64,000 nucleotides of DNA, taken from Candidatus Bathyarchaeota archaeon. GTDB lineage: Archaea > Thermoproteota > Bathyarchaeia > 40CM-2-53-6. Below, one piece after another: positions 26,777 to 50,507 of this stretch (positions are counted from its first letter, which is position 1; each line of letters opens with the position of its first letter). The position numbers and the translations under genes are program-made. Location: contig VBBS01000032.1 in the NCBI GenBank assembly GCA_005888745.1, forward strand, positions 56,116 through 120,115, read 5' to 3'. The notes under the pieces were generated by a model. It searched no databases, was not told where the DNA came from, and was given only the letters and a program-made list of their open reading frames with translations.

Positions 26777-29746
26777 CTATTCCAGATAGATTGCCGGTCT
26801 GTACGGCTCCGACATTCTAGCCCGATCCTTAGGATCGCTTATCCCGGTGTCTCCTTCCTTCCAGACATTGATCGGGCTTTTGAATTCGCGTTGATAGAAG
26901 TCTGCCGCATTAGCAAAGATAGTTTTCTCAGCAGTGATCCCATCTTGGAGACGTGACTGTCTCATCTCATCAGGCATTTGGTTTGCCTGCTTAAGCGCTT
27001 TGCTAGCATAGTCGGCTGCATTCTTTCCCAGCGATCGGAGCAGAGGATCTCCCATAATCTCCTTGATGAAATCCCCTTGTCTGTTCTTCTCGCCCGCAGC
27101 CTTCAGTGCTTTGAGATAGACTTGCCATTTCCAATCTGCTGCTGTGAAGTATGCGATGCGCTTAGGAGTCATGCCCGTAGCTTTCAGGATCTCACTAGTA
27201 TCGTCTAATAGTTGTCGAACGAGCGCTTCTGCTAGCTCTGCCTTGGGATCTCTCTCATTCTCGACTTCTTCAGGCCAATCGCTCTGGACGACGAACCCCT
27301 TGTTTCCGATACGGCTCCAGATCTCCTCCGCGGTGTGGGGCGCGAGTGGAGCCATCATTCTTGTTCTCGTCTCCAACACCCTTCGCAGGATCCGGTCGCG
27401 ATTGTCGGATCTCGGTTTCCTGGGGCCGAGTCTTCGCTTGTACCATGCAGCGTCGTTGTCGAGCTGGTAGAGAATGATGTTGATCGCCTCCCTAACCCTC
27501 AACCTGTCCAGCGCATTTGTCGCGGTCAGGACGGCGATGCTCAAACGGCTGATCATCCATCGATCGAGTATGGAGGTTTTCGATTTCCCAGCTGTCTTCT
27601 TCGCGCCCAGCCTTCTCGCCTGTCCAATAAGAATGGCCAGTCTTTGCTGAATCGATGCGGCGAGCCCTTCGCTGAAGTCTGTGTCCTGGCCCAGTTCAGC
27701 TGTTGCCAATACCCCAACCCGAACAGGATCAGCTCCGAACCTAGCGATTCCCTGGCGGAGAGGAATGATATTCTGGAGAGACTTTGACATCTTCGCACCC
27801 TCCATCAATACGAAGCCATTGGCCACGATTCCTTTCGGCCACTGTCTCTCAGGAAAGAGAGTCGAATGGTGAAATATGTAGAAAGATAGATGGTTTGAGA
27901 CCAGTTCTCTCGCCGAGTGACGCATGTCAACCGGATAGAAGTACTCGAACTCCGTCCGGATCGCACTCAGTATTCTTTTGGGAACTCCGGTCTCTTTTGC
28001 AACCCCGTCAATGGCTCCTTCTCCCAGAAGTGTGAAGTTAAAGAAAGCGTCAGGCAATTCTGATGTGTCCTTTTCGAACTTCTTGAAGACAACCCAGTCC
28101 TTGGCGAAGTACTTGGATAGGATGTAGTAGGCCATATAGACGACCGAATCCGACAGCGCCTCGATTGTCCAGCTTGGGTCCCATGGAAGCTTCGTTCCCA
28201 GACCCACTGTACGCGCGCAAGCTCTCTCCCTCAACCAGTCCAGTGTGTAGTTGAACTCGGCCCGAATCTCCTCCGGTAGAATGACCAGTTGGTCAAGGCA
28301 TTTGTGGGCTAGTTTTTTCCACTCGAGATCGCCGTAGTTGATGAACCACTGGTTCTCCAGAATATGGACTAGACATTTCGTTCCGCACCTGCAGACTACC
28401 GGCGCGTTTCTCAGTTCAAGCAAGGTCTCAATTTTTCCCTGTCTTGTCAGTTCTTGGACGATGGCCTCCCTCGCTTTCGCGACTGGCATTCCAGAGTAAC
28501 TGCCAGTGTTTTCTCTCATCACTCCGTCATGGAACTCTCTGGAGTACAGCTCCTGAGTCGCAGGTTCTAGACGAGGGTCGTTCTGGTCTTTGACTTCGAA
28601 CTTCTTGATCTGATCCTTGGCGGGAAAATCGGAGAAGCCTTCCAGCCTTATGATCGATATGGGATTGGTTGCTTGCAGAATCGGCCCTGCCTCCGCGGAC
28701 CCAGCGTACCTCTCCTTGAGGTCGATCAGGGCCTGATAGTCATACGGTGCGTGACCTGGAACGGACATGACAACACCAGTGCCATTATCTGGATCGACGA
28801 AGCTTCCAGGGAAGATCGGGAAATCGTTGCCTGTGACTGGGTTCCGGACAGTGTTCCAGAGCAACTCGCCTGCCGGGATCTCGCGTTCTACGACGACCTT
28901 GTGATTCTGGTGCTGAAGCTTCCCCACCGTTTCCCTGCTGATGACCCAGGACTCTTCGTTAACCGTAGCTCGAACATAGGTGGCTTTCGGGTTGACCCAG
29001 AGATTGGTCACCCCAAACACAGTCTCAGGCCTCAAAGTCGAAGTAGGATAGAACACCCCATCTTTCTCGAACTTGACCAAGTAGGAGTCCCCTATCTCGG
29101 GTTCCACATCTCCCTGGGTATCCACGACTCCCACTGGGCTCTTGTCATTGGGACACCACGCGACCGGATGTGTTCCTCTCGTGATCAGTCCTTTCTGGTT
29201 CAGGGTCCGAAAGTGCCATTCGATGTATCGGCTATAGAGAGGGTCGATGGTCGTGAACTCTCGGCGCCAGTCGATGGAGAGGCCAATCTCCACCATTCCC
29301 TTCTTGATATCGTCGCGGAAGTAGGAAGCCATCGACTTGGGATCTTTCAACTTCTCCTGCATTGACCGTGGAATTCCGTAGATCCTGGTGAAGGCCTCCA
29401 CGATCTCAGGGTCGCCTTCCCGGAGGCGTTTGGCCATGGCGAAGAGTGGAGAGCCCGTATAATGGAAGCCCATTGGAAAGAGAGTGTTGTAGCCTCTCAT
29501 CCGGTGATATCGGGCGTTAACGTCGGCGATAGTGTATGTTCTCGCGTGACCGATATGCTGGGGAGAGTTCGGGTAGGGATAGGCCGCCGTCACATAGTAC
29601 TTGGGTCTACGAGAGTCAGAGTCTGTCTCATGGATCTTGCGCCAGTCCCACTTTTTCTGCCACTTTCTTTCGAGCGCGCGCCAGTCAAGCTTGGCCGGCG
29701 TTACTGACTCCCTCCCCTGGGGTTGCCATATTGAGCTGCCTTGCAA
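26777..29746 (-). CDS. leuS: leucyl-tRNA synthetase (archaeal type)
   Basis: YPYPNSPQHIGHARTY, GFHYTGSPLFAMAKRL, TLRPETVFGVTNLWVNP, EGAKMSKSLQNIIPL (KMSKS); exact start uncertain. Confidence 0.95.
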   Translation of the reverse strand: MQGSSIWQPQGRESVTPAKLDWRALERKWQKKWDWRKIHETDSDSRRPKYYVTAAYPYPNSPQHIGHARTYTIADVNARYHRMRGYNTLFPMGFHYTGSPLFAMAKRLREGDPEIVEAFTRIYGIPRSMQEKLKDPKSMASYFRDDIKKGMVEIGLSIDWRREFTTIDPLYSRYIEWHFRTLNQKGLITRGTHPVAWCPNDKSPVGVVDTQGDVEPEIGDSYLVKFEKDGVFYPTSTLRPETVFGVTNLWVNPKATYVRATVNEESWVISRETVGKLQHQNHKVVVEREIPAGELLWNTVRNPVTGNDFPIFPGSFVDPDNGTGVVMSVPGHAPYDYQALIDLKERYAGSAEAGPILQATNPISIIRLEGFSDFPAKDQIKKFEVKDQNDPRLEPATQELYSREFHDGVMRENTGSYSGMPVAKAREAIVQELTRQGKIETLLELRNAPVVCRCGTKCLVHILENQWFINYGDLEWKKLAHKCLDQLVILPEEIRAEFNYTLDWLRERACARTVGLGTKLPWDPSWTIEALSDSVVYMAYYILSKYFAKDWVVFKKFEKDTSELPDAFFNFTLLGEGAIDGVAKETGVPKRILSAIRTEFEYFYPVDMRHSARELVSNHLSFYIFHHSTLFPERQWPKGIVANGFVLMEGAKMSKSLQNIIPLRQGIARFGADPVRVGVLATAELGQDTDFSEGLAASIQQRLAILIGQARRLGAKKTAGKSKTSILDRWMISRLSIAVLTATNALDRLRVREAINIILYQLDNDAAWYKRRLGPRKPRSDNRDRILRRVLETRTRMMAPLAPHTAEEIWSRIGNKGFVVQSDWPEEVENERDPKAELAEALVRQLLDDTSEILKATGMTPKRIAYFTAADWKWQVYLKALKAAGEKNRQGDFIKEIMGDPLLRSLGKNAADYASKALKQANQMPDEMRQSRLQDGITAEKTIFANAADFYQREFKSPINVWKEGDTGISDPKDRARMSEPYRPAIYLE

Positions 29747-32447
29747 TGGTTTGTGACGCGATCTTCAACGCCTCGTCCACTTTGTCTTTGGAGGATCCGC
29801 CGCCTGTCGCGAAGAATGGTCTGCCCGCTCCGCCACCACCCAAGACTTTAGACGCTTCTGAGACGATTTGGCCCGCGTTAACACCCGCCTTGACGGCCTC
29901 GTCGCCTGCCGCGGCTACCACCTGAACCCGCTCCGATACCTCGAATACTACCACGATCATATTAGGGTCGGATTCCTTGAGCCGATTGGCAACCTCGACC
30001 GCGTCGATTCCTCTCCTCTTCACCGTCTTTGCGAGTACGAGTCTAACTGTTCCGAAACTGATTGCTTTCTTCTCCAATTGTTTGACGTGTGTTTCCATGG
30101 CCTTCGCGTGAACCTTTTCAAGTTCTCTCTCTAGAGAATCTCTCTCTACGATTATTGCCCTGATGGACTCCAGAAGCTTGTCAGGCGTCGTTTTCAGGAG
30201 TTCGCTCGACTTTGCGAGTTCTTCGCTCTGCTGGTTGATCCGTTTCAGCGCGGGCTCCCCCGCGAAGAAGATAATTCGCTCGACGCCGTCCTGCAACTTG
30301 CTAACCTTCTCGATCTTAAAGACTCCTCCGCAAGCTTCCGCGTCCCAGCCCTAGATTCTTACTACTCGGATCTTCGAGCCTGGGACCGCTCCGCCTTGGT
30401 AGAGCCTGTAACCGTACTTTGCCTCCGCCTTCTCACGAGCCATCCACGTAACTTGTACTGGGAGGTCGTGCAGAATGACTTGGTTGACCAGCCGCTCGAT
30501 TCTTTCCTTCTCTTTCGCACTGATCTCCCGGTAGTGCGTTATGTCTAGCCTGCTCGACTCCACTTCCTTTTGCGCACCCGCTTGCCAGACGTGCTCGCCT
30601 AGCACTCTCCGCGCCGCCCCTATCAGAGCGTGAGTGCCAGTATGGTGACGCATCAGGTTCACACGGCGCTGCCAGTCAATCTCTCCCTCAACCAGATCGA
30701 TTTCTTGATCGATGGGTTGGTCAAGAAAGTGAACGATGATATTTCCGAACTTTTGGACGTTTGTAACTTTCAGTTTCCTATCGTCGGACCGTAATTCACC
30801 GTGATCGGCGGGTTGGCCACCTCCCTCCGGATAGAAACATGTCTGGTCCAGCACGACAGCATTTTCGGCAACCTTCGCCACTATCTTCGCTTGGAAGCGG
30901 GTCTGATAGGCATCCTCATAGTATGACGCTCGGGTTGGTGGAAGATCCTTTAGCTTCGCTTCCCATTCAGGTTCGGAGGAGGATGCCTCAAGACTAGTAG
31001 TCGGCTTTGAATGTCGTTCCGCGACTAACGTCAAAAAGTTCTCGGGAACGTCGACCTCTACTCCGACCTTTTCCGCGCTCTCCTTTACGATCTCGGGCGC
31101 CAGACCTTGAGAATCGTAGAGCAGTACGAGCTGGTCTGTAGGAATCTTCCGAATGCCTTGACTCGAGAGCTCCTTTGAAAGTCTAAGCACCGCCTCGGAC
31201 CCCTTACTTATTGTCTCCTCGTACTTCTCAACTTCAATCCGCAGACCCTCCAGTATCTCTCCTCTCATCTCTCGGAGGAGGTGAAACTCTCCACCCCACA
31301 ATTTGATTTGCCCCTCGATTATGCCTGGAAGTTCCGGGAGGATTCCTAGTTGTCGTGCCAACCTTGCGGCTCGGCGAATGATGAGCCGGGTCAGGTAGCC
31401 TTCGCCCACGTTGGACGGAACGACGCCTTCAGCTAGCAGGAAGGAGATCGATTTTGTGTGATCCGTGATTGCAAATGCGGCCTCCAGCGTCTGAACTACC
31501 GAACGAAAGGCCTCCTTGTCGCGGCCAGTCTCGAGTGCTGTCGCTTCGACATAGGCATCTCTAGAAGATCGACTGGAGGCTCCATAGATTCCTGCCGCCC
31601 TCGTAAGATATGACAAACTGCTCTCGTCAAGGTCGACTTTCGCTAAGCCCAAAACCTGCGTGAGCAAGGGGCCATACACAGCATGGAATCCACTCGGGGA
31701 GCCTTGTGACAGCCAAGCCCATCTTTCCATCCCATAACCAGTGTCCACGGTCCTGATGGGCAGGCCTATGAGTTCATCTCCCTGAACCTTGTACTGCATG
31801 AAGACGAGCGTCGATATTTCTAGCCCTGAGACAATTCCTTCAAGGTCTGGACCCGCATTTCCTCCCCCTGACCAAAAGTGCTCTTTGTAAGTGATGGACT
31901 CAGAGGGGACACCCATCACGTCGGACAAGAGTTTGTGGTGATAACGGACTGTATCGTCTTTCCAATAGATTTCCTTATTCGGATAATTGAACGCGTGGGC
32001 TCCACCCATTTCAAATATGGACATGTGTCGGCCCGCCGCGCCAACCTGTTCAATGTCAGTGAAACGGATACAAGGCTGACTGATGACCAACGGGTTTGCA
32101 GGCGGCGGCATCGTCCCTTCGGTCACGTACGGTTGGAAATCATAGATCGATGCCCCTACGAGGTAGACATCGTTACGCCAACGCGCCACAATCGGGTAAG
32201 GCTTGACCCTGCTGTGTCCCCGCTCTGCGAAATAATCCATGAACTGAATCCTCATCTCCGCCAGAGTGTACCGTCGTTTTGTAGGAGGGTTTCCGATGAA
32301 CGAATACGGTGAACAAGGAACCTCGCCACAAGTCGCCTGACTAGGTGCCGCCCAGTAGTTGCTTCCGCATGATGGACATTTTTTACGAACGAACCCGATT
32401 TCCCTGAAGTACGGGAGGGCGAATTCGTCTTGGTTTATCTCTGGCAT
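29685..32447 (-). CDS. alaS: alanyl-tRNA synthetase (archaeal type), interrupted by one in-frame TAG at 30351-30353
   Basis: 30351..32447 encodes the catalytic and most of the editing domain (GVFKAVYGP-like, HHTGTHALIGAA); same frame continues after TAG as GWDAEACGGVFKIEKVSKLQDGVERIIFFAGEPAL...GGGGAGRPFFATGGG to 29685. Confidence 0.9.
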
Positions 32448-50385: not shown

Positions 50386-50507
50386 TGGTGCGGCCGCCGG
50401 GATTTGAATTCCCGAACCGCTGTTGAGGCGGTTTCCCGGGTCGTCAGCGTTCTGCTAAGCCTATCATTGGCAGGCTGATATCATAGACCAGGCTAGACCA
50501 CGGCCGC
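50386..50507 (-). tRNA. tRNA-Gly(GCC) with two introns (50450-50467 and 50409-50434), CCA encoded
   Basis: GCGGCCG/CGGCCGC acceptor, TCAGC-CTGCCAC-GCTGA anticodon arm and CCGGG-TTCAAAT-CCCGG T-arm after removing 18-nt and 26-nt introns, each with a 4-bp central helix and two 3-nt bulges. Confidence 0.93.

Follow-up and report, generated by a model that had tools for sequence, protein, structure and literature searches.

An in-frame TAG in an alanyl-tRNA synthetase gene

How is an alanyl-tRNA synthetase (AlaRS) gene to be understood when a TAG codon stands within its reading frame? The question is raised by the window, i.e., the 64,000-nt stretch of Candidatus Bathyarchaeota archaeon contig VBBS01000032.1 analysed here, on the minus strand of which a single frame runs from 32447 to 29685 and comprises 698 codons, a TAG (30351..30353), 221 further codons and a TGA; the plus strand at this locus is full of stops. 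The part before the TAG (N-part, 30354..32447, minus strand) encodes 698 aa with the full aminoacylation and tRNA-recognition region and most of the editing domain. The part past it (C-part, 29688..30350, minus strand) stays open for 221 codons, which encode the rest of the editing domain, a linker and the C-Ala/DHHA1 domain, and is followed by the original terminator TGA (29685..29687), overlapping the reading frame of leucyl-tRNA synthetase (LeuRS). Over its whole length, the encoded AlaRS is collinear with archaeal AlaRS (A. fulgidus 3WQY/2ZTG, P. horikoshii 2ZZE, TIGR03683). The site of the TAG is occupied by a Gln codon in most congeners and by Arg, Val, Met or Leu codons in others; in the closest relatives (genomes G007 and G001) the alignment shows CAG, so a single C-to-T change is enough to produce the stop.

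The original prediction described an AlaRS gene in one frame interrupted by a single TAG and offered four explanations in no order of preference. The frame and the TAG are indeed in the assembly, on the minus strand, which had been left unstated, but a second lesion had been missed: the continuation quoted in that prediction ('...EACGGVFKIEKV...') spans a 30-nt deletion without marking it. Nucleotide and protein alignments place the deletion junction at 30324..30329 (minus strand), between the two GGA codons of TGC GGA|GGA GTC, 24 nt (eight codons) past the TAG. The deletion is in-frame and removes ten codons, encoding GTHCKRTGEL, that are present in every intact congener. The locus is thus more than one interruption in an otherwise perfect gene, and it illustrates that an in-frame stop can mimic recoding where a nearby second lesion argues otherwise.

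Relative to the A. fulgidus enzyme, the stop falls between the equivalents of V696 and G697, and the ten residues deleted after it include the equivalent of H707, which forms the CxxxH motif with C703 (alignment with 3WQY). Together with HxxxH, this C703/H707 motif provides the zinc ligands of the AlaRS editing site. In the window that site is incomplete: HHTGTH is kept, the Cys codon lies past the TAG and the His codon is deleted.

Domains retained by the 698-residue product

Both the class II catalytic region of AlaRS and its tRNA-recognition region are complete in the N-part. PF01411 covers residues 1-551/552 (364 bits), and the archaeal AlaRS equivalog model TIGR03683 scores 902 bits on the N-part alone, against a cut-off of 744.7. 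In the PDB alignment, the counterparts of A. fulgidus N359 and D450, which read G3:U70, are kept too. In contrast, DHHA1 (PF02272, 45 bits) is encoded solely past the TAG, which leaves C-Ala outside the 698-aa polypeptide, and the truncated editing domain, missing the counterpart of A. fulgidus 697-739, might misfold.

In sequence, the N-part is consistent with the mini-AlaRS, charging-only class. A precedent is the AlaRS of Tupanvirus, a 461-aa enzyme naturally without editing and C-Ala domains, which charges tRNA and rescues yeast in which ALA1 is knocked out; the N461 fragment of the E. coli enzyme fails to rescue yeast (PMC10036535). Like the product considered here, the Tupanvirus mini-AlaRS has neither a working editing domain nor C-Ala. 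However, it is viral and ends before the editing domain, whereas the 698-aa protein carries a partial editing domain and is the only AlaRS found in a cellular genome. By analogy, aminoacylation by the short protein is plausible.

Selective constraint before and after the TAG

Constraint on the window's branch was compared with the background in a codon branch model on ten sequences. Up to the TAG, omega on this branch equals the background, both for residues 1-540 (0.06) and for residues 541-698 (0.09), and a value of 0.39 is rejected for the latter segment (drop 7.4). Past the TAG, omega rises to 0.38 vs 0.13 in the background (2dlnL 6.8-7.5), most strongly over the half nearest the TAG (0.66 vs 0.10), and in the same ten-sequence model this relaxation appears in none of the nine other lineages. 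Private substitutions in the window number 13 nonsynonymous to 7 synonymous past the TAG, vs 16 to 37 upstream of the stop (p = 0.015), yet the same test gives p = 0.029 for G016, whose AlaRS is intact.

When 56 segments across the contig served as a control, the C-part came top by likelihood ratio, but an omega ratio above 3, similar to that of the C-part, was reached by some five or six others; LeuRS, the neighbouring gene, is itself mildly raised (0.153 vs 0.095). Because its omega ratio is not unique, the relaxation of the C-part is suggestive only, and so is the overall contrast between a normally constrained N-part and a relaxed C-part.

Editing in trans and the favoured reading

To our knowledge, the editing and C-Ala domains are kept in AlaRS almost everywhere, because confusion of serine with alanine is harmful. 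The genome is a draft of 2,195,209 bases in 75 contigs, 93% complete and with 3.8% contamination. As originally stated, the window holds no second AlaRS copy, and a search of the whole 2.195-Mb, 93%-complete assembly, which had been proposed as a check, returned none either: the sole other PF01411 match is a weak one, to a 244-aa AlaX. This is the separate editing protein AlaXM (NF040865), encoded on another contig (C18:52689-53294), in which HTAGH is present and the zinc motif reads ADGGLH instead of ACGGTH. AlaXM is found in nearly all congeners, including those with an intact AlaRS, so its presence is no specific compensation for the truncated enzyme. AlaXps have been reviewed as a redundant clearance system for Ser-tRNA-Ala (PMC3158927).

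Tentatively, and with slightly less than even confidence, we favour a genuine C-terminal loss that has left a charging-only AlaRS with editing in trans. The TAG would act as an ordinary stop, and two close lesions, i.e., the change of CAG to TAG and the 30-nt deletion of the second zinc motif, would have cost the sole AlaRS its C-terminal part. Judged by the class II core and tRNA-recognition helices that it keeps, the 698-aa product would probably still charge tRNA-Ala, with lower efficiency for lack of C-Ala; its own editing would be dead, and Ser-tRNA-Ala would probably be cleared in trans by AlaXM. This reading takes the assembly to be correct, the short protein to be both produced and active, and editing to have passed to AlaXM. 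It is possible, on a slightly weaker footing, that the loss of the editing zinc site and of C-Ala from this archaeon's sole AlaRS is recent and that its proofreading depends on AlaXM, which would represent a natural transition from cis- to trans-editing. If so, a naturally truncated sole cellular AlaRS would test how far AlaXM-like proteins can replace editing in cis.

As a side observation, the AlaXM gene (L054, G000:C18 near 52689) has no ATG, GTG or TTG before the conserved N-terminus TRKLYW; an ATT follows a GGAGG at the position where G011 has TTG.

Artefact, pseudogene or split gene

The most serious alternative is an assembly or strain artefact, in which the TAG and/or the deletion would stem from a chimeric or low-coverage consensus while the cells carry an intact alaS. 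We regard it as rather unlikely. AlaRS is essential, and the fragmented (75 contigs), partly contaminated draft lends the artefact some weight, as does the behaviour of alaS in the genus, where the gene is a recombination mosaic and where the G001 and G007 assemblies break nearby. In G001, alaS (L035-L037) is present as three overlapping pieces on contigs ending at codons 616-657. In G007 (L040, G007:C83 about 29189), an 11-nt frameshift coincides exactly with the point where the sequence passes from one haplotype to another, and there is a run of Ns in the LeuRS gene that follows; from this sequence context, the G007 break is probably an assembly error. Yet at the window's two lesions no haplotype switch is seen in the congener alignments, and an artefact would require two nearby lesions. 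Moreover, the excess of amino-acid change extends beyond the lesion across the whole 221-codon C-part. Of 50 G015 gene queries with a match on the 120-kb contig, no long one other than AlaRS is broken, so its lesion is not background noise.

Convergent decay of AlaRS in the genus was also considered and rejected, since its main support was the G007 frameshift, which, at a haplotype switch and near an N run, looks artefactual. Separately, the AlaRS of G002 (G002:C149:12756-15596) gives matches in several frames within one contig, as if repeatedly frameshifted.

It is improbable that the locus is a dead pseudogene and that a functional AlaRS resides in the 7% of the genome that escaped assembly or binning. 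The completeness of 93% leaves room for such a copy, but a complete second AlaRS is absent from all 17 congeners searched, and on the window's branch purifying selection acts in full on the N-part, residues 541-698 included. Had the entire gene decayed over the time implied by the C-part, this neighbouring segment, whose branch is of similar length, would be expected to show relaxation too.

A split AlaRS, in which the 698-aa part and a restarted C-terminal polypeptide would be translated separately and then assemble, is a still poorer candidate. The frame of the C-part is open with omega below 1, and the in-frame TTG at 30296 that had been pointed out as a restart is present and opens a 203-aa ORF (29685..30296, minus strand). 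A precedent exists in Nanoarchaeum equitans (PMC3655853; PMC10036535), whose archaeal AlaRS (NEQ211/NEQ547) is likewise encoded in two frames. There, however, the pieces are separate genes and the break lies within the tRNA-recognition domain (PMC10036535), whereas in the window they are adjacent and the break lies inside the editing domain. The TTG ORF encodes linker and C-Ala only and starts downstream of the zinc motif, itself deleted, so that the two pieces together do not restore all domains with a full editing site, as a Nanoarchaeum-type split would, and the zinc His is in neither. By eye, no well-spaced Shine-Dalgarno sequence is seen before the TTG, and none of the congeners has a convincingly split AlaRS. 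The Nanoarchaeum-like option raised originally thus finds no support.

TAG as stop or sense codon

That readthrough or a suppressor tRNA yields one full-length protein, another of the original options, is very improbable: the frame is continuous across the TAG, but the resulting protein would be without the zinc His and a total of ten editing-site residues, and the C-part that it would preserve is relaxed. Since the His codon is deleted, even a full-length product would still be without an editing zinc ligand.

The use of TAG elsewhere points the same way. TAG is the commonest terminator on the contig, ending 23 of the 52 other conserved genes. A profile search of the genome for PylS, prompted by the original proposal to look for pyl genes, gave a best match of 33 bits against a cut-off of 178, and a PylC-like search returned a sub-cut-off match only. 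Pyrrolysine recoding was rejected, as PylS is missing, and TAG is not rare as a terminator; the earlier view that wholesale TAG reassignment is unlikely is supported. Conservation of the TAG in relatives had been suggested as a further check, and none carries it at the AlaRS site among the 60 related genomes searched, 17 of them congeners. Stops reported in other genomes were set aside: in G043 both TAGs checked are ordinary terminators, and those in G040 and G044 appear to be so too, as judged from the search table. On the side of suppression, the whole-genome tRNA search recovered just 13 tRNAs, mostly longer than an intronless tRNA, which makes the search for anticodon CUA incomplete; no evidence otherwise speaks for such a suppressor.

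Within the window, no tRNA or Rfam family was found by ARAGORN or at Rfam gathering scores. The whole-genome search did give a tRNA-like match of 119 nt and 30.5 bits at 50389-50507 on the minus strand (G000:C44:106504-106622), missed by ARAGORN and the Rfam scan, that probably contains introns.

The start codon of the adjacent LeuRS gene

The gene downstream of AlaRS encodes an intact LeuRS (26777..29701, minus strand; 960 bits to leuS_arch) and overlaps the 3' end of AlaRS in another frame. Its expected start was placed by alignment with P. horikoshii LeuRS and that of G013 and falls on an ACG (29701-29699), preceded by a GGAGG (29715-29711), inside the AlaRS 3' end. The start was compared in the window's subclade (the window, G001, G004, G005, G006, G007, G010, G013, G014, G015 and G016). 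At the expected position, nine species including the window have ACG, G013 has ATG and G016 has ATA, and most of the subclade has a GGAGG-like site about 9 nt before it. The LeuRS frames of G004, G014 and G015 contain neither ATG nor GTG nor TTG from the in-frame stop upstream as far as the HIGH motif. In five congeners of the other subclade a TTG stands one codon downstream, and the same position is ATG in G018, which belongs to another genus.

From these alignments, ACG is a candidate near-cognate start of an essential gene; no paper on archaeal ACG starts came up in a full-text literature search. A general shortage of canonical starts was considered as well, since an automatic scan flagged 18 of 48 gene groups, and was rejected, the alignments being convincing for LeuRS only. 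Initiation at the LeuRS ACG is perhaps helped by translational coupling to the termination of AlaRS; under such coupling, the premature TAG would affect LeuRS too.
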